In this document: positions 22,176 through 31,846 of the stretch, piece by piece | How positions within the stretch are numbered: the stretch's first letter is position 1 | Layout of the letters: each line of letters opens with the position of its first letter | Assembly (NCBI GenBank): GCA_021797355.1 | Contig: JAJZZX010000003.1 | Span: 62,001-126,000, forward strand | Length of the DNA stretch: 64,000 bases | Source: Thermoplasmata archaeon | Lineage (GTDB): Archaea; Thermoplasmatota; Thermoplasmata; Thermoplasmatales; Thermoplasmataceae | Direction of reading: 5' to 3' | Translations under genes and position numbers: made by a program | Notes under the pieces: model-generated | Seen by the model: only the letters and a program-made list of their open reading frames with translations | The model's database searches: none | What the model was told of the DNA's origin: nothing

Positions 22176-23192
22176 ATGGCTGAAGATGTTTTCGAAAATC
22201 TTAAGAAATTTGGATTGACATCTTACGAAATTAAGGCTTACAGGGCATTGCTTCTGAACGGGCCAATGACCCCTATGGAAACAGTTTCAGTTGCGGGAAT
22301 ACCACAGCCAAGGATATACGATGTCCTTCAAAGCCTTCTCAGTGAAGGACTCATAGAGGTAAGTCCCGGAAAGAAGAAAATATACAGGGCTAAAGACGTT
22401 AAATCAGCTTTTAGCAGCAAGCTCGCCGAGATGTCAATAGACCTTGAAAGAATATCAAAGGAGGCGTCGAGGCGGAGCAAAACAAAGGAGGGAAAGAATC
22501 CGCTGATCTGGATGGTCCAGTCGGAGAGCAAGATTAGAGCTGAGATGAGGAGAATGATTGACCAGTCTGCAGATGAACTCATATTGTCACTCAAGTATGA
22601 GCTCCTTCACAGATTGAGAAAGAATATCAGGGCCGCACTGGACCGTGGAGTTTTAGTAGTAATCGTTGTCTTTCCTGACACAAATCCGGAAGATATCAGC
22701 GATCTGCAGGCCGCTGCCATAAAACAGAGAAAAGGTTTTGCTTCTGAAGTTATAATTTCAGACAGGACCTCCTCAATTATAAAAATCGATAACGGAAATT
22801 ATGACCAGAATTATGCAATTGCAATTGAGGAGGACGAGATAATACACATTACCAGCTACTATTTTTACCACACAATATGGACTCCAAGCATTAATGTGAG
22901 GGAATTGCCGATCCGTTCACCACTCAGGGTCAGAACAAGCTGGCTAGCCTGTGAAATACTTGACAGGCAACTTCAGTCTGGCAGCCAGGTTATCAAGGGA
23001 ACTGTTTATGGCAGAATGAAGGGAAAGGAAGTTAGCATCACCGGAAATATCACAAGGGTGGAAATTGAGCCTGGATATAAACACACATTTTATATCTCCA
23101 GGAACAAGGCTGAATATTCAGTGGGAGGAAAGTCAGCAAGAATTGAGGACATTGCAATGACTTCAGTACATCTGAGACTAAATACTACTTGA
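22176..23192 (+). CDS. trmB: TrmB-family sugar-sensing transcriptional regulator
   Basis: A full-length TrmB-type regulator of 338 residues. The N-terminal winged helix (SYEIKAYRALLLNGPMTP then IPQPRIYDVLQSLLSEGLI) binds DNA, a charged coiled-coil linker spans about residues 80-105, and the C-terminal two-thirds match the TrmB sugar-binding region (PLIWMVQSESKIRAEMRRM then a beta-rich end). In Thermococcales TrmB represses the maltose/trehalose transporter and is released by sugars. Here it sits directly upstream of two glycosidases and near a Mal-type transporter, making it the obvious regulator of that locus. TTAAATTATT about 25 bases before the ATG suggests a leaderless transcript. Confidence 0.9.
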   Translation: MAEDVFENLKKFGLTSYEIKAYRALLLNGPMTPMETVSVAGIPQPRIYDVLQSLLSEGLIEVSPGKKKIYRAKDVKSAFSSKLAEMSIDLERISKEASRRSKTKEGKNPLIWMVQSESKIRAEMRRMIDQSADELILSLKYELLHRLRKNIRAALDRGVLVVIVVFPDTNPEDISDLQAAAIKQRKGFASEVIISDRTSSIIKIDNGNYDQNYAIAIEEDEIIHITSYYFYHTIWTPSINVRELPIRSPLRVRTSWLACEILDRQLQSGSQVIKGTVYGRMKGKEVSITGNITRVEIEPGYKHTFYISRNKAEYSVGGKSARIEDIAMTSVHLRLNTT

Positions 23193-23388
23193 AGTATGAT
23201 TATTTTAAAGAATATGACAAATAAATTGTATACTGCATATTTTTTCACAGAAAGCACATTAGATAGCCTTTAACTTTGTTTGTAAAGATGAAAAACTAAT
23301 AAATATTACATTCTATAAAAAAATAGGGATAAATCGGAAAATTCTCATTTCTACAGAAAAAATATATGCTTCAGAGATATGTAATTCT

Positions 23389-25284
23389 GTGTTGATAAAA
23401 ATCTATGAATCCAGAAATTACTATAGGGTCAAGATTGGATCTTACGATCCTGTCATAAAATTCTCATCCCCGGGCGAGGCAGAGATTGATTCTGGTTCCC
23501 TAGGGAACATAGCCGGCAACATGGAGGTATCTCTGGCAAAGGACAGCATCAACATACAGTTTGATCTGGATCCATCTTCCCACGTCCTTGGATTGGGCGA
23601 AAGAGCATTCGGCATTGACAGGAAGCGGAAGAAATTGATTTCTGTAAACAAGGATCCTGGAGGCTATGTCAGGGGTGTCGATCCAATATACCTTCCACTG
23701 CCATTTTTCCTTCAGTTGACTGACGGAGCATGCCTTGGTGTATTCGTAAACCATCCGGGAAAGGTTCTTTTTGATTTTGGGGTGGAGACGTACAACAAAT
23801 CAACCGTGACCGTATTCGATTCAGGATGCGAGGTCTTCATATTCAAGTCATCGAGCATTAAGGATGTTGTTAGATCATTCATTGAGCTGACTGGCAAGCC
23901 TTTCCTACCACCATACTGGAGCATTGGACATGCAATTTCAAGATATACATACTATCCGGCAAGCTCAGTTCTGGAAATTATAGAGAAGTACCAGAAGTTT
24001 GTGCCAGTTGAGGCAGTGTATCTTGATATCCACTATATGGACAGATACAAACTTTTTACCTGGGATCCAGCCAAATTCGGCAACGGCAGGGAGTTTGTGG
24101 AAAAAGTCCATGACAGGGGTACAAAGGTCATCCCAATAATTGATCCTAGCATCAAATCTGACCAGAGTTATTCGCTTTTTGTTGAGGGCATGGGAAATTA
24201 TATTGAAACACCAAACTCAGATATCTATCATGGAAAAATGTGGCCTGGAGACTCGGTATTTCTTGATTTCTTAAACGAGAAATCAAGGGATCTTTGGAAG
24301 AAATATGTAACTGAGTTCCATAAAACAGGAGTCGATGGCATCTGGCTCGACATGAATGAGCCTACCATACTGTCCGAGGATCATCTGTTGGACGCAAATG
24401 CTATACATCACCTGGACGACGGTTCTCCCATAATCCATGAAAAGGTCAGGAATGCCTATCCATACTTCCAGGCAAAGGCCACATTCGAGGCCTTGAGTTC
24501 AGTCAGCAAAGAGCCGTTCGTTCTTTCAAGATCGGGTTATGCCGGTATACAGAAATACGCAGCTGTCTGGACGGGGGATAACAAATCAAGCTGGGATGAC
24601 GTAAAGCTCCAGATTTCGGTCGTAACCAGCCTATCCATTTCTGGCGTTACAGTTGTAGGGTGTGATCTTGGCGGATTTTTTTCCGACAGCGATCCGGAAA
24701 TGCTGGCAGCCTATTACAGGATGGCGCTTTTCTTTCCGCTGTACCGCAACCACAAGACCATTAACGGGAACGATCAGGAAGTGTTCCTTATGCCTTCTAA
24801 ATTCAGGGATGACATAATGGCATCAGTGAAACTCAGGTACGACTTCATGGACTACATCTACTCAATCCTGTATAATTCACACAGTGAGGGGGTGCCAGCT
24901 GTAGTGCCCCTGCCGTATGAATTTCCCCTGGATGGTGATTCTTATTACGCTGAAGACGAATACATGCTTGGACCAGGGTTGCTGTATGCACCTCAGATAT
25001 ATCAGTGCAGGGAGGAAAGGGAAGTATATCTTCCGGAAGGCAACTGGCTTGAATTCTGGTCCAGAAAAGTTATCAAGGGCTCCGCATATTATCGAACGAA
25101 GGAAAAATTCCCAGTATATATCAGAGAGAATTCGTGCGTTGTTTACAGGAAGAAAATAATAGTTTTTGGGAAAGGCAAATTTACCCTTTATATTTCAGGC
25201 CAAGTGGTTACAGTGGATTCCGACGGCGCACACGTTGAAGTTACTCCACGGGTGGATGGTTACACTGCTGAGGTCTACTCTTGA
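23389..25284 (+). CDS. Alpha-glucosidase, glycoside hydrolase family 31
   Basis: A GH31 enzyme of 631 residues that releases glucose from the non-reducing end of maltooligosaccharides. The nucleophile motif is WLDMNEP (D321) and the acid/base is in WTGDN (D397). The substrate-binding stretch YLDIHYMDRYKLFTWD lies upstream. The C-terminal beta domains follow the barrel. No signal peptide is present, so it acts in the cytoplasm on imported sugar. The start is GTG at 23389, about 25 bases after AATATATG, with no Shine-Dalgarno site. It is followed 12 bases later by the GH13 gene, forming an operon. Confidence 0.95.
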   Translation: MLIKIYESRNYYRVKIGSYDPVIKFSSPGEAEIDSGSLGNIAGNMEVSLAKDSINIQFDLDPSSHVLGLGERAFGIDRKRKKLISVNKDPGGYVRGVDPIYLPLPFFLQLTDGACLGVFVNHPGKVLFDFGVETYNKSTVTVFDSGCEVFIFKSSSIKDVVRSFIELTGKPFLPPYWSIGHAISRYTYYPASSVLEIIEKYQKFVPVEAVYLDIHYMDRYKLFTWDPAKFGNGREFVEKVHDRGTKVIPIIDPSIKSDQSYSLFVEGMGNYIETPNSDIYHGKMWPGDSVFLDFLNEKSRDLWKKYVTEFHKTGVDGIWLDMNEPTILSEDHLLDANAIHHLDDGSPIIHEKVRNAYPYFQAKATFEALSSVSKEPFVLSRSGYAGIQKYAAVWTGDNKSSWDDVKLQISVVTSLSISGVTVVGCDLGGFFSDSDPEMLAAYYRMALFFPLYRNHKTINGNDQEVFLMPSKFRDDIMASVKLRYDFMDYIYSILYNSHSEGVPAVVPLPYEFPLDGDSYYAEDEYMLGPGLLYAPQIYQCREEREVYLPEGNWLEFWSRKVIKGSAYYRTKEKFPVYIRENSCVVYRKKIIVFGKGKFTLYISGQVVTVDSDGAHVEVTPRVDGYTAEVYS

Positions 25285-25296
25285 TGGATATACAGC

Positions 25297-27174
25297 ATGA
25301 TCAGTGAAGTGGATTTAGGTTATTTGCACAGGGTATCATTCTCTGTTAAATTTTTGCCTGGAGACAATAACTGCTACTTAAGCGGTACTTTCAACTGTTT
25401 TGGAGACGGAAGCATCCAGATGGAACTTCGCGATGGGAACTGGGTGGCCACACTTGACCTCTTACCAGGGAAATACAGGTACTATTTCGAAATAAACCAG
25501 TACTGCAAAGTAGACCACAACAGGGAAATCATTAGAAAGCCCATGGAACTGATGCTGAAGCAGACTGGAATTTATCACGATCCTGGAGACAGCAGGCTGT
25601 CAACTTCGCTGCCCGGCATTAAGGTGCTCAGGTGCATCACGGAACCTGCAATATGTGATTTGAAGCTTGTTACTGGCAGCAACAGCACAATAAGACCGGA
25701 AGTTACTGCCAGAATGGAGACTCACAACGTCTTCGAATTCATTATCCAGGAATGCAATAGCTATTATTTTACATCAGAAGACTCCCGGCTGAAGGCCGGC
25801 CCGTTCCATTGTGAATCCGGAGAGCCTGAAACATCGGGTTCAAACATAATCTATCAGGTATTTCCTGATAGATTTTCCAGATCCGGTCCTGCAGGCAATT
25901 TTGCCCCATGGGACTCAATACCAGATTCAAGGTCCTTATTTGGAGGGAATATCAGGGGCATAATTGAAAAGCTGCCATATATTAAGGGCTTGGGTGTCGA
26001 TCACTTATATCTCAATCCATTCTTCACTTCACAGAGCAACCATAGGTACGACGTCGATGATTATTTCCAGGTGGACCCAGTCCTGGGAACCAACACTGAT
26101 CTCATTGATCTTGGCAAAGAATTGAGTAAGAAGGGGATGCATTTCATTATTGACATGGTGTTCAACCACACGTCAGTGTTCTTTCCTGTCTTCAGAAGAA
26201 GCATTGATGATGGCGACAAGACAGCGAGGGAATGGTACTGTTTCATTGATGGCCAAAGCTTGAACTGTTCTGGAAATGCTAGCAAGAGCCTTACTGATGC
26301 CCGTGCACTTTCCTACCAGTGTTTCAAAGAATTTCCGCGTATGCCCAAGCTTAATCATGGAAACGAGGAGGTGCGAAAACTGATGCTAAGGGTGATGGAA
26401 TACTATTCTGAAATCTTGCCGTTGTCTTACATGCGATATGATGTGGCAGATTCAATCGATCTTGGTGCAATGAGATCGGTACTAGGGCATTTCAGGAAAG
26501 AATATCCGAAAATCGGGCACATCGCGGAAATATGGTGCGATCCAGATATTTTTACTCGTGACGGCCTTTACGATAGCGCCATAAACTTTCCACTGAGGCA
26601 GATCATCATTGATCTTGTCAGGGGGAAGATTGGCTCCAGAAAATTCAATTATGAACTGGTGAAGATGAGATCTCACGCTCCTCAATCTGCTCTCAAGAAA
26701 ATGATGAACATAGTTGGGAATCATGATACTGAAAGAGTCAGCACTTTACTTGGTAATAAGGAAGCAGCCCTGCTCTCTTATGCTCTGCTATTCATGTTTG
26801 ACGGAATGCCCACAATATATTATGGAGACGAGACCGGGCTCGTGGGCGGAAGAGACCCAGACTGCAGGAGAACCATGCCATGGGACAATTTGGATCTAGA
26901 TCTTATTGAAGAGTTCAGGAAACTTGCAGATATAAGAAAAAAGTATGATGTGATGAGGAATGGCTATGTAAAGCTGGCAAGAAGAAAGTCAGGTATCTTC
27001 GAACTCACCAAAGTGAACGGAAAGGAATCAATGACGATGCGATTTTCAATTTCGGAAGGAGAAATCCATCTGAACAGAATAAAGCATGTATTGGCACACA
27101 ATGTTTTGGAAATTGGGAATAGTGTTATATTCTCCAAATATTCCTTTTCGATAGAGGTTAAGGCATGCACATGA
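25297..27174 (+). CDS. GH13 cyclomaltodextrinase/neopullulanase-type glycosidase
   Basis: A 625-residue GH13 enzyme with an N-terminal starch-binding-like beta domain (GTFNCFGDGS...WVATLDLLPGKYRYYFE, residues about 28-70). The catalytic barrel shows IYQVFPDRF, then DMVFNHTS, the nucleophile in MRYDVADS (D382), the acid/base in IAEIWCD (E411) and the stabiliser in VGNHDTER (D477). This set fits the GH13_20 group, which hydrolyses cyclodextrins, pullulan and maltooligosaccharides. No signal peptide is present, so it works with the adjacent GH31 enzyme on internalised sugars. Its stop lies 3 bases from the convergent malK stop. Confidence 0.92.
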   Translation: MISEVDLGYLHRVSFSVKFLPGDNNCYLSGTFNCFGDGSIQMELRDGNWVATLDLLPGKYRYYFEINQYCKVDHNREIIRKPMELMLKQTGIYHDPGDSRLSTSLPGIKVLRCITEPAICDLKLVTGSNSTIRPEVTARMETHNVFEFIIQECNSYYFTSEDSRLKAGPFHCESGEPETSGSNIIYQVFPDRFSRSGPAGNFAPWDSIPDSRSLFGGNIRGIIEKLPYIKGLGVDHLYLNPFFTSQSNHRYDVDDYFQVDPVLGTNTDLIDLGKELSKKGMHFIIDMVFNHTSVFFPVFRRSIDDGDKTAREWYCFIDGQSLNCSGNASKSLTDARALSYQCFKEFPRMPKLNHGNEEVRKLMLRVMEYYSEILPLSYMRYDVADSIDLGAMRSVLGHFRKEYPKIGHIAEIWCDPDIFTRDGLYDSAINFPLRQIIIDLVRGKIGSRKFNYELVKMRSHAPQSALKKMMNIVGNHDTERVSTLLGNKEAALLSYALLFMFDGMPTIYYGDETGLVGGRDPDCRRTMPWDNLDLDLIEEFRKLADIRKKYDVMRNGYVKLARRKSGIFELTKVNGKESMTMRFSISEGEIHLNRIKHVLAHNVLEIGNSVIFSKYSFSIEVKACT

Positions 27175-27177
27175 CAA

Positions 27178-28287
27178 TCATTGAAGGGCGCCAATCCTGT
27201 TCTTCCTTGATCCTGGCTTATAAATGAGCTTCCCTGTATCCGGGTCAAACAGCATCAGCTTGCTCAAGTCAGGCACCAACCTGCTGGATTGCCCCAATGA
27301 AAGCTGTGAACCGACAACATCCTGCCTTATGAGGTCCAGGCCATCCGGTGTCTTGAAGTATTCATATATGCTTTTTCCTATATTCTGTGTAACAACCAAC
27401 CGCGCCTCTATGCCAGACTGTCCCAAGGAAAGATCCTCAGGTCTAAAGCCAACCTTGACCTCAATTTCTTGGCTGTCTCCAAGGTCAATATCAGCCATGG
27501 GAAATGATGCACCTGAAACTTGCAGAATTACCTCTCCGTTTCGAGAAATGAGCTTTCCATTGAGCATGTTCATTGGAGGATCGCCAACGAACGTAGCAAC
27601 AAAGGTATTTTCAGGAAGATTATAGAGATCCAGCGGTGGGCCAATCTGTACTACAACACCGCCGTTCATTAAGCATGCCCTGTCGGCAAGTGTGGTTGCC
27701 TCCACCTGGTCATGCGTAACGTAAACTGTAGTGGTGTTGAACTCCTTCTGGAGCCTCTTTAGCTCAACCCTCATCTGCGTCCTGAGCTTTGCATCAAGAT
27801 TGCTGAGAGGTTCATCCATAAGGAAAAGAGCTGGTTCCCGCACCAGTGCCCTTCCCAGCGCGACTCTCTGCCTCTGCCCGCCAGATATTTCCCCAGGTTT
27901 CCTATCCAGAAGATCGCTAATGCCAAGAAGCTTTGCAACCTCTTCAGTCTTGGCATCCCTGTCTTTCTTGGACATCTTGGTGATCTTTAGCGGGAACTGT
28001 ATGTTATCCCTCACGGTCATAAAAGGGTACAGGGCATAGTTCTGAAATACCATTGCTATGTTTCTCAGTCTTGGAGGGAAGTCTGTTATCTCCCTTTCAT
28101 TCAGAAAAATGTGTCCTGAATCCACAGACTCTAGTCCAGCTATCATTCTTAGGGTAGTAGTCTTGCCGCAGCCGCTAGGGCCCAGAATAACAAAGAATTC
28201 ACCGTCGTCAACCTCGAGATTCACGTCAAATACGCCTTTATGACCCCCAAAATCCCTGTTGACGTTTTGAAGCACTAGTTTAGACAT
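27178..28287 (-). CDS. malK: Maltose-type ABC transporter ATPase MalK
   Basis: A 369-residue ATPase of the carbohydrate CUT1 family that energises the MalFG permease. Walker A is GPSGCGKTT (residues 36-44), the signature is ISGGQRQRVALGRAL, and Walker B LFLMDEP and the switch histidine VTHDQ follow. The C-terminal 130 residues form the OB-type regulatory domain (PEDLSLG). The ATG at 28287 is used rather than the GTG at 28296. Although adjacent to malG, it has its own TATA box with an abutting operator (28339-28361), so it is separately transcribed and probably under the same repressor as malE. Confidence 0.95.
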   Translation of the reverse strand: MSKLVLQNVNRDFGGHKGVFDVNLEVDDGEFFVILGPSGCGKTTTLRMIAGLESVDSGHIFLNEREITDFPPRLRNIAMVFQNYALYPFMTVRDNIQFPLKITKMSKKDRDAKTEEVAKLLGISDLLDRKPGEISGGQRQRVALGRALVREPALFLMDEPLSNLDAKLRTQMRVELKRLQKEFNTTTVYVTHDQVEATTLADRACLMNGGVVVQIGPPLDLYNLPENTFVATFVGDPPMNMLNGKLISRNGEVILQVSGASFPMADIDLGDSQEIEVKVGFRPEDLSLGQSGIEARLVVTQNIGKSIYEYFKTPDGLDLIRQDVVGSQLSLGQSSRLVPDLSKLMLFDPDTGKLIYKPGSRKNRIGALQ

Positions 28288-28338
28288 ATAAATCACTACT
28301 GCATGATCTCCTAATTATATTTGTGTTTCGAAAATATC

Positions 28339-28361
28339 ACTATTGCAAGTAGTATATATTG
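28339..28361 (-). promoter_or_regulatory. malK promoter with putative TrmB operator
   Basis: The quasi-palindrome ACTATTGCAAGTAGT (28339-28353, plus-strand reading) has outer arms ACTA/TAGT around TTGCAA. On the minus strand an AATATATA TATA box (28354-28361) abuts it on the upstream side, so a bound repressor would block the step between TATA recognition and transcript start. A motif matching 12 of 15 bases has the same arrangement at malE. Confidence 0.6.
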
Positions 28362-28425
28362 AGATATTATTAATATAAAATATAAGTTGTAAATAAAATG
28401 ATTGGGAAATTAGGCCGCAACGAGT

Positions 28426-29343
28426 TCACTTGTACGTGGAAAGGCTGAATCCGGACACCAGATATTTCTGAAAGACGAAGAACAGTATGAATATGGGAAT
28501 GCCCATGAGTACAGAGAAAGCTGCGTATGTTCCATAGTTAATGACAATTGTTCCCTGGGAGACATAGTACATGCCTATTGCTAGGGTGTACAGCCCCTTG
28601 GAGGTTATGAACTGGCCTGCAAGAGCATAGTCTGTGTAAGGTCCCATGAAAGCAATAACTGCAGCAAACACTATGACCGGTCTGGCCATTGGTATTAGAA
28701 TCCTGAAAAGGGCTGAATTCCTGCTAAGCCCATCCATCTGTGCTGCTTCCTCATAATCTTTTGGTATATTGTCAACATAATTCTTGATCAGGTATGAAGA
28801 ATAGATGACAGCACCGGCAGAATATGGTATGATAAGGCCTATGTAGGTATCAAGAAGGTGAAATTCCGAGAACATAAAGTAGAATGGTATTACCATCATT
28901 GTGAATGGGAACAGTGACAGAATGAGGAGCATATAGAGAAGGGCCCTTTTTGCAGGAATTCTGAACCGTGAGAGGGCAAGGCCAGACGAAATGGAAAGTG
29001 CAACCCCTATGACGGTTGAACTTGCAGTGAGGATGAGCGTGTTCTTCATCCAAAGGAGGAAGGGGTGATGGAAAAGTATGCTGTAGTAATTAGCCAAACT
29101 GAGCCTCGCACTTGGCAGGAGATCAGCAAGAGTAGCATTTGCCAGCGATCCTATGCTGTTTAGGGAGGTAATAACAACATAATATATTGGAAAAATTGCA
29201 AATAGGGCAAATACAATCAAAACTATATGTGATATAATTCTCTTTAGGAGCCTAAGTCTCTTGAAGTGTGTATTCATTCTGAATATGTCTTGTTCCTCTG
29301 TGAATGTTTTCTTTCCGCTTTTTACAATGTTGCTGTTTTCCAT
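28426..29343 (-). CDS. malG: Maltose-type ABC permease MalG
   Basis: A 305-residue inner-membrane permease subunit with about six helices after a 35-residue cytosolic N-terminus. The EAA loop contacting MalK reads EEAAQMDGLSRNSALFRILIPMARP, the standard E-A-A-x-x-D-G...G...P consensus. It starts 9 bases after the malF stop with a GAGGCGGG ribosome site and belongs to the malE-malF-malG operon. Confidence 0.95.
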   Translation of the reverse strand: MENSNIVKSGKKTFTEEQDIFRMNTHFKRLRLLKRIISHIVLIVFALFAIFPIYYVVITSLNSIGSLANATLADLLPSARLSLANYYSILFHHPFLLWMKNTLILTASSTVIGVALSISSGLALSRFRIPAKRALLYMLLILSLFPFTMMVIPFYFMFSEFHLLDTYIGLIIPYSAGAVIYSSYLIKNYVDNIPKDYEEAAQMDGLSRNSALFRILIPMARPVIVFAAVIAFMGPYTDYALAGQFITSKGLYTLAIGMYYVSQGTIVINYGTYAAFSVLMGIPIFILFFVFQKYLVSGFSLSTYK

Positions 29344-29352
29344 AATCCCGCC

Positions 29353-30249
29353 TCAATACAATATTGACATCATCTTCGTATAGTGGTTGGAAACAATCAC
29401 GAATACGAGCAGTATTAGTATGGATATGACAGCGTAAGCAGCCCCGAGAGCATAGTTAGAATAGGAAAATGCCTGAAGATAGGAATAGGTAATTAGGATT
29501 TGCGTTGATATTCCCGGACCCCCGCCTGTAAGGAGAAAAGGAACGTAGAAGTTGTTCCAGGTGAAAATGAAGCCAAAGATGGTGATAAATGCGATCTGCC
29601 TCTTGAGAAGAGGCACGGTTATCTTTGTCAAGGTACTCAGTGAGCCGTATCCGTCCATTTCCGCAGCTTCATAAAGCTCATGCGGTATGCTCTGTACCGC
29701 AGAGGTATATACGTAAGTGTAGTAGGGGAAAGAAAGCCAGAAATTAACCAGGATAAGTGACAGCATTGCATAGTGAGGGGAAGTCAGCCAGTCTAAGCTT
29801 CTGAGTCCAATGGCATTGAGAATCTCGTTGATCACGCCTCCATTATAGGCCAGCATGTTGGACCAGATCAGGATGGTTATGAAGGCTGGAAATGCCCAGG
29901 GAAAAAGGTAGACAGTCCTGTAGAAATACTTACCCCTCAGCTTCTTCTGATTCATTATCATTGCAAGGGCAAATCCTGCGGGAACCATTACAGCTGTACT
30001 TCCAACGCTCCATATCACTGTGTTCAGGATTACTGTCCTCAAATCGGAACTTGCAAATATATACGCATAGTTGGCAAGCCCCACAAAACCGTATCTAAAA
30101 AAATGCAGTGAATTGAAGTCTGTAAAGGAGAAATATATGCTCTCAAAAATCGGGTAGAAGTCAAGCACAGCTAGTACCACAATAACCGGGAGCACATACA
30201 ATAATCCTCGAAATTCCAGGCTACTTTTCTTTCTGTTGTCCATTAACAT
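29353..30249 (-). CDS. malF: Maltose-type ABC permease MalF
   Basis: A permease subunit of about 298 residues with six hydrophobic helices and the EAA loop YEAAEMDGYGSLSTLTKITVPLL. It lacks the long periplasmic P2 loop of E. coli MalF, as usual outside enterobacteria. Three start codons (GTG 30252, ATG 30249, ATG 30243) are close together; GTGAT just before the last could be its ribosome site. It is the second gene of the operon, about 30 bases after malE. Confidence 0.95.
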   Translation of the reverse strand: MLMDNRKKSSLEFRGLLYVLPVIVVLAVLDFYPIFESIYFSFTDFNSLHFFRYGFVGLANYAYIFASSDLRTVILNTVIWSVGSTAVMVPAGFALAMIMNQKKLRGKYFYRTVYLFPWAFPAFITILIWSNMLAYNGGVINEILNAIGLRSLDWLTSPHYAMLSLILVNFWLSFPYYTYVYTSAVQSIPHELYEAAEMDGYGSLSTLTKITVPLLKRQIAFITIFGFIFTWNNFYVPFLLTGGGPGISTQILITYSYLQAFSYSNYALGAAYAVISILILLVFVIVSNHYTKMMSILY

Positions 30250-30282
30250 CACAACGTTTAAAATTAAAAATATGGGATATGA

Positions 30283-31773
30283 TTAATTTTTCTTCTTCCT
30301 GGAAACATAGAAGTATGAGCCCACTCCAGCAACTATCACCACTGCAGCTATGACACCACCCACAAGGTACCAGTTGATGGGTGCCGCAGGAGTAGCGGAA
30401 ACTTCCTGTATCTCGGTAAGTACAGCTTTCTGGAATGCATTCATGACAGCAGAAACATTGTTTGTGCCGTTATCATAGAGGTTGCCGACATAGGTGTGGA
30501 AGTTAGGCCAGTAGTAGTTCATGTTCACGAAACCTGGCTGTGGCTGTGTATGCTGTTCCTGTGCCAGCCAACCGCCAATCAGGGGATCATTGTTTGTGTG
30601 GTTCGTTATGTAGTTCCCAGCAGCTATCAGCGAGGGAAAATCTCCTGCCTTATCAAAAAGGTTGATCTGTGCCGTAAGATTTGTTTCCATTTCTATGAAT
30701 TTAAGTGACGCCCATATCTGTGAACTTGTTATTCCCGAGGCTGCAGGTGATGATATGAAGTAGCCAACCGATCCCCAGATGGGCTGCGGCCAGTATCCAG
30801 TGGCATTATCGAAAGGAAGAGCGGTGACATTCAGATTGCTACCAAGATACTGTTCGTATAGTGACTGGTCCCATGGACCATCGATCATGAATGCCGAATC
30901 ATTGGCTTCGAACATGTTCTCCTGTTGCGTCATTGTAGTGAGTCCTGTGGGGCTCACGTGGTACCTGTATGTAAGGTTGTACAGGAATGAGATGGCACTG
31001 ATATCGGCGGATGAGTTCAGTACTGGCATTTCGCTTGCATTGAAGATTTCACCGCCAAAAGCCGGGAACCATGCTGCAGACCTGTAGCCACTGTCCGTGC
31101 CGAGTCCGTATACTAGACCCCATACAGTTGGAGAGGACGGGTTAGGGTTCAGAGTCTTGTTATCTGTTACGTTTATTGCGTCCTGTATCATCTGGTAAAC
31201 GTTCTTTGGGGGGGTCTTGATATATTTCATGTTATAGTAAAGCCCAACCCCGTTAGTGTTTACCGGAATTCCATAAAGTGCTCCATTGGAACTCCAAGCC
31301 GCAATCGTCCCCTTGGTGAAGCTGTTAATGTAGGATGAATTAAGGTAGGGTGTAAGATTCAACACGGTACCGCTGGCGTAAAGTGCACCTGCATTATCAC
31401 TTGTATCCCTGTATACGTCAGGGGCCTTGCCTGCATGCGCGGCACTTACATATGTCGTGGAGGCAATACCAACTGCAGGGCTGTCATCAACAGTGACATT
31501 GGGGTAAACGCTTTCGAAATAGGCCAGCGTTTGGTTAAACACTTCCTGCTCTCCGCCAGGTGATCCCGATCCCCAGACAGTTATTGTCACAGAGTTCGAA
31601 GACGAGGCAGGCACACTGTTACCCACGATGCTAATGGGGTGATCATACAGTGCAACAAATCCTCCCATTATGAAAAGAGCGGCCACCATAAGTACACCAA
31701 AAATCACAGTGTTCTTATGTCTTGATTCAGGTTTGAAATCTCTATTATTCGGTTTCTTGCTTAAACCGTCCAT
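30283..31773 (-). CDS. malE: Maltose-type extracellular solute-binding protein with helices at both ends
   Basis: A 496-residue family-1 solute-binding protein that captures maltooligosaccharide-like sugars outside the cell. The N-terminal helix (VIFGVLMVAALFIMGGFVALY) is followed by a Ser-rich linker and the binding domain beginning VTITVWGSGSPGGEQ; several N-x-S/T sites suggest glycosylation. A second hydrophobic helix at the extreme C-terminus (WYLVGGVIAAVVIVAGVGSYFYVSRKKKN in part) is followed by a K-rich tail. No lipobox cysteine is present. It may be anchored at both ends unless the first helix is removed. It is the first gene of the operon. The ATG at 31773 is preferred over the TTG at 31782. 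Confidence 0.92.
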   Translation of the reverse strand: MDGLSKKPNNRDFKPESRHKNTVIFGVLMVAALFIMGGFVALYDHPISIVGNSVPASSSNSVTITVWGSGSPGGEQEVFNQTLAYFESVYPNVTVDDSPAVGIASTTYVSAAHAGKAPDVYRDTSDNAGALYASGTVLNLTPYLNSSYINSFTKGTIAAWSSNGALYGIPVNTNGVGLYYNMKYIKTPPKNVYQMIQDAINVTDNKTLNPNPSSPTVWGLVYGLGTDSGYRSAAWFPAFGGEIFNASEMPVLNSSADISAISFLYNLTYRYHVSPTGLTTMTQQENMFEANDSAFMIDGPWDQSLYEQYLGSNLNVTALPFDNATGYWPQPIWGSVGYFISSPAASGITSSQIWASLKFIEMETNLTAQINLFDKAGDFPSLIAAGNYITNHTNNDPLIGGWLAQEQHTQPQPGFVNMNYYWPNFHTYVGNLYDNGTNNVSAVMNAFQKAVLTEIQEVSATPAAPINWYLVGGVIAAVVIVAGVGSYFYVSRKKKN

Positions 31774-31823
31774 AATACTCAAGACTCAATTATAATACAA
31801 TAAGATAAACTTTTTGATTTCAT

Positions 31824-31846
31824 ACTATTTTGAGTAGTGTATTAAT
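31824..31846 (-). promoter_or_regulatory. malE promoter with putative TrmB operator
   Basis: ACTATTTTGAGTAGT (31824-31838, plus-strand reading) has the same outer arms ACTA/TAGT as the malK site. On the minus strand the TTAATACA box (about 31839-31846) abuts it, with the transcript start expected about 40 bases upstream of the malE ATG. Confidence 0.6.

Follow-up and report, generated by a model that had tools for sequence, protein, structure and literature searches.

Conserved palindromes at the malE and malK promoters as candidate TrmB operators in Thermoplasmatales

In an uncultured relative of Thermoplasma, two copies of a 17-bp palindrome, one at the malE promoter and one at the malK promoter, point to a TrmB-controlled maltose/maltodextrin regulon in which one regulator would serve two transcription units, malEFG and malK, a reading to which we assign a probability of roughly three in four. 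In the proposed scheme, a TrmB dimer, encoded next door, would recognise TACTACT-N3-AGTAGTA-like palindromes at both promoters. Bound just upstream of the BRE/TATA elements, the sugar-free protein would hinder TFB/TBP and thus keep both promoters repressed, and maltose or maltodextrin, the presumed inducer, would release it.

Two palindromes in the mal locus

The window, that is, the whole 64-kb stretch of DNA analysed, carries trmB, GH31 and GH13 genes on the plus strand, followed by malK, malG, malF and malE on the minus strand and then by a plus-strand MFS gene (Table 1). An earlier note had drawn attention to ACTATTGCAAGTAGT at 28339-28353 and ACTATTTTGAGTAGT at 31824-31838, and both strings are indeed present, identical at 12 of 15 positions and with perfect copies of the ACTA/TAGT arms described as common to them. 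Each 15-base string sits inside a longer 17-bp palindrome with the consensus TACTAYT-N3-ARTAGTA. When this consensus was searched with at most one mismatch, only the malE and malK sites were recovered from the whole 1.74-Mb genome. Since the two-mismatch matches elsewhere in the same genome lie mostly inside genes, we claim no wider regulon for it.

Table 1. Genes, candidate operators and predicted promoter elements of the mal locus (window coordinates)
Feature	Coordinates	Strand	Remarks
trmB, regulator, 338 aa	22176..23192	+	PF01978 and PF11495
Weak third copy, TACTACTTGAAGTATGA	23183..23199	+	overlaps 3' end of trmB; ~190 nt before GH31 gene; low confidence
GH31 glycosidase gene	23389..25284	+	PF01055; possible target of weak third copy
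GH13 amylase-family gene	25297..27174	+	PF00128; follows GH31 gene
malK, ATPase	27178..28287	-	PF00005 and PF17912
malK BRE/TATA (predicted), ACACAAATATAATT	28313..28326	-	6.6 bits, regional best; 67th percentile
malK operator (candidate), 17-bp palindrome	28338..28354	-	minus-strand sequence TACTACTTGCAATAGTG; ends 50 nt before malK ATG
malG, permease	28426..29343	-	PF00528
malF, permease	29353..30252	-	PF00528
malE, solute-binding protein	30283..31773	-	PF13416; ATG at 31773, TTG at 31782 also possible
malE BRE/TATA (predicted), CAAAAAGTTTATCT	31803..31816	-	9.1 bits; 93rd percentile of 153 promoters
malE operator (candidate), 17-bp palindrome	31823..31839	-	minus-strand sequence CACTACTCAAAATAGTA; conserved in relatives

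Could such sites be chance palindromes in A/T-rich intergenic DNA? The arms alone would allow it: exact ACTA-N7-TAGT occurs twice in the window and at seven places in the genome, and with one mismatch it is equally common in the window and in shuffled sequence, so that ACTA-N7-TAGT by itself was rejected as too loose a motif. However, the full palindromes are unique in the genome, recur between genera and were recovered by a cross-genus matrix. In a first matrix, some of the training sites had been chosen by the same palindrome; the cross-genus matrix was trained on sites of the genera g6, g8, g11, g21, g28 and g30, with the nearest genera, g1, g12 and g16, left out. As a result, the malK site ranked first and the malE site second in the window, with scores of 16.4 and 16.2, followed by 9.2 for the next match. 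The same matrix placed a site in 12 of the 13 malE/malK promoters of g1, g12 and g16. Because random windows from mal loci themselves contain operators and were thus unsuitable as a null, we used column-permuted matrices, which scored a mean of 0.26 of the 13 promoters, and one in 1000 of which reached 12. Chance is thereby left as a very improbable explanation, and both sites are, judged from sequence, very likely genuine regulatory switches.

The weak third copy, TACTACTTGAAGTATGA, retains an exact TACTN3AGTA, with two mismatches to the 17-bp consensus and a matrix score of 8.5, and has same-place counterparts in L034 and L172. The earlier note, which had seen no full copy before the glycosidase genes, was incomplete with respect to this weak one.

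Conservation and the candidate regulator

The mal loci of relatives were taken from the order plus named genomes; we take G110 to be Thermoplasma acidophilum, G027 to be T. volcanium and G015 to be Cuniculiplasma divulgatum. All 20 Thermoplasmatales genomes that possess both mal genes and a mal-linked TrmB orthologue, spanning nine genera, carry the palindrome at the malE and/or malK promoter; G011, in which trmB is split by frameshifts, is counted among them. In contrast, it was found at none of the mal loci of eight genomes without a TrmB orthologue, where the best score was 10.3. These eight (G034, G053, G057, G065, a Parvarchaeota bin, two Thermoproteus and one Sulfolobales genome) have only distant TrmB paralogues. 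The co-occurrence (20/20 versus 0/8) is strong, with the qualification that the relatives are not independent of one another and that most of the eight are distant. Searched for as the earlier note had proposed, across the whole genome and related mal loci, the motif is confined to the two mal sites at the one-mismatch level and is found, rather than missing, in orthologous mal promoters. Three genomes of g27 (L218, L219 and L220), which have no TrmB orthologue, encode a distant MalF within a 960-aa open frame. The Cuniculiplasma proteome paper held nothing decisive.

The gene at 22176 had been read as trmB, and the domain searches bear this out: an N-terminal winged helix (PF01978) and a C-terminal sugar-binding domain (PF11495) both exceed the cut-off. 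P. furiosus TrmB (3qph) is a relative of the protein, whose Y48, D49, G318 and E324 correspond to Y50, D51, G320 and E326 of the P. furiosus protein, all invariant in alignment A2; in P. furiosus TrmB, Y50 and D51 contact DNA, and G320 and E326 contact the sugar (TrmB review). The genome also encodes a second full-length TrmB family protein on contig C8 (L062:9683-17101), ~4 kb from another MalFGK-like transporter, and no high-scoring palindrome was found at that locus.

This second gene is one reason to consider that the palindromes are bound by a different regulator, be it a paralogue of the adjacent TrmB or some other protein of the winged-helix type; another is that TrmB-like genes of ~255 aa adjoin similar sites at DsrC-like and AmiS/UreI-like genes in family f4. 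However, short TrmB-like paralogues are present also in the eight site-less genomes, whereas the palindromes track the mal-linked TrmB orthologue and the inner motif of their consensus matches the known TrmB site. Because of this tracking and this match, TrmB is the likely binder of both the malE and malK operators, and we consider another binder unlikely. The TrmB-type switch suggested at the outset is thus supported by the conserved orthologous sites, by their co-occurrence with the TrmB orthologue and by the match of the inner consensus arms to TACTN3AGTA.

Promoter geometry and sign of control

We then consider malK as a separate unit. In most relatives having the site, the malK operator lies 45-59 nt before the ATG, close to the 50 nt of the window, and this spacing is kept where malK is inverted (g11 and g21), where an MFS gene separates malK (g28 and g30) and where malK is ~5 kb away (three g12 genomes). 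Since the spacing holds despite these rearrangements, malK probably has its own promoter; a predicted BRE/TATA accompanies the operator, and both persist in loci with an inverted or relocated malK. This agrees with the proposal that malK has its own regulated promoter despite following malG. No clear site was seen at malK in L171, L083 and L061, and the site is weak in g6 and in some g11 loci. Taken together, separate TrmB-controlled promoters for malEFG and malK are well supported as a reading of the conserved elements.

The BRE/TATA predictions come from an unsupervised motif built on 127 upstream regions of the clade, a BRE/TATA-like AAAAAAATTTATAA with the TATA ~30 nt before the ATG; because of this short distance, leaderless transcripts are probably common. 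The model puts a BRE/TATA 13-18 nt downstream of both window operators, with the malE TATA core beginning 13 nt past the operator. Counted from the first operator base, the TATA core starts at 30 bp for malE and at 33-35 bp for malK. The malE operator-BRE/TATA spacing is the same in four g12 malE promoters, being in G106 (L171) only the second-best match, and in the malK promoters of relatives the predicted BRE/TATA lies mostly 12-24 nt downstream of the operator. The earlier note had instead placed a TATA box directly abutting each site, which implied a repressor geometry with the operator between the TATA and the start site. A/T-rich strings do adjoin the operators on the far side, but they are not among the top BRE/TATA candidates of the model, which lie on the operator's other side, so that neither the abutting box nor the implied geometry is supported.

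Other genera position the operator differently. The malE operators of g6 (Thermoplasma), g8, g11 and g21 lie over the start codon or the first codons of predicted leaderless genes, and g11 and g21 combine such a malE operator with an upstream malK operator. Over the genera, the operator-TATA offsets fall near +20, +30-33 and +40, and at -25 and -35 for malE of g6, g8, g11 and g21. The upstream offsets are in helical phase (Rayleigh p of 6e-5 to 9e-5 for 15 values, ~0.006 when collapsed to seven), a regularity that is suggestive, having been noticed post hoc in few independent cases.

With the BRE/TATA elements downstream of the operators, activation is the main rival to repression. TrmB might activate from upstream of the BRE/TATA through TFB or TBP, like MalR or upstream-bound TrmBL1. 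The downstream BRE/TATA in the window and in most malK promoters of relatives would suit this, as would the collapsed phasing and the glucoamylase operators of two relatives, at offsets of +32 and +34. Furthermore, TrmBL1 represses from downstream sites and mostly activates from upstream ones, as on two of three templates (PMC4706686). In P. furiosus, the site through which TrmB represses malE covers the BRE/TATA. Against activation, malE operators on the start codon, as in g6, g8, g11 and g21, could hardly activate; g11 and g21 mix both operator positions within one transporter regulon; and in g1 and g12 the core promoter of malE already ranks as strong by the model (73rd-100th percentile). 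The phasing, moreover, carries the limits given above. For these reasons we lean slightly towards repression, and activation appears possible and the weaker candidate. More tentatively still, the operators may have jumped between helical-turn steps (~20, 30 and 40 bp before the TATA) and the start codon, in which case the sign of control would have flipped between genera or, alternatively, repression by TrmB would run through TBP-TFB from either side in a phase-dependent manner.

Relation to known systems and further sites

The published P. furiosus TrmB motif is TACTN3AGTA (PMC4158304), and the likeness to the Thermococcales TACT...AGTA arms pointed out earlier is borne out by the inner 11 bp of the cross-genus consensus, which match it. 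In this inner register the window malE and malK sites read TATTN3AGTA, with one mismatch each, and the exact motif occurs only in the weak third copy. As in the TM operon under P. furiosus/T. litoralis TrmB, the regulator combines DNA- and sugar-binding domains with conserved Y-D and G/E residues, and a palindrome stands at the malE promoter. The present site differs in that it spans 17 bp, with outer TAC/GTA arms conserved at least as well as the inner ones, in that malK has its own operator, and in that the predicted BRE/TATA elements come downstream of the operators, whereas the Thermococcales operator overlaps the BRE/TATA of malE.

The outer arms, TACT-N9-AGTA, are spaced like the TACT-N8-GAGTA form of the Halobacterium TrmB VNG1451C site (TACT-N7-8-GAGTA), but VNG1451C is a global regulator of gluconeogenesis, and in the present palindromes the G preceding AGTA is not conserved. 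Upstream sites are also a feature of MalR, the TrmB family member that regulates malEFGK in Sulfolobus acidocaldarius; however, MalR activates, and it acts through a pair of ATAATACT repeats near -139 and -106, unlike the single palindrome near the BRE/TATA found here. TrmBL1/Tgr shares with the present system the occurrence of sites on both sides of promoters over its targets, whereas its TGM motif, TATCACN5GTGATA, is unlike ours in sequence.

Among relatives, the palindrome also stands upstream of genes for GH57 amylopullulanase-like enzymes, glucoamylase, GH13 and GH31, with strong copies before glycosidase genes in several relatives, and these predicted targets would fit a maltodextrin regulon.

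Several further sites were noted. After malG, a Thermoplasma locus (L167:11882-16807) encodes a giant GH57 protein (1641 aa, Glucodextran_C domain), and an operator covers the start codon of its gene. In three g12 genomes (L205:144, L208:4999 and L209:5026), an operator copy lies 83-99 bp upstream of a gene whose product, as identified in the L208 protein, has pyruvate:ferredoxin oxidoreductase domains. Two genomes with TrmB and without the mal transporter (L038:15191 and L039:15237) have a 15.3-bit site 46 bp before a gene of 787 aa; the gene of L038 was considered as a glycosidase and rejected, being pyruvate phosphate dikinase. The f4 family has near-perfect palindromes before its DsrC-like and AmiS/UreI-like genes (L200:1629 and 3353; L201:4034 and 6176; L202:5395), with a TATA just upstream of the palindrome and the TrmB-like gene adjoining.

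A limited literature search found no TrmB regulon or operator described in Thermoplasmatales, so that a claim of novelty would be a weak one. For this order, the analysis yields a predicted TrmB regulon, with its operator, that can be put to the test. The 17-bp consensus, with inner arms at the Thermococcales spacing and outer arms at the Halobacterium spacing, may reconcile the two published motifs, and the natural variety of operator positions near the BRE/TATA offers a promoter set for asking how an archaeal regulator represses or activates.
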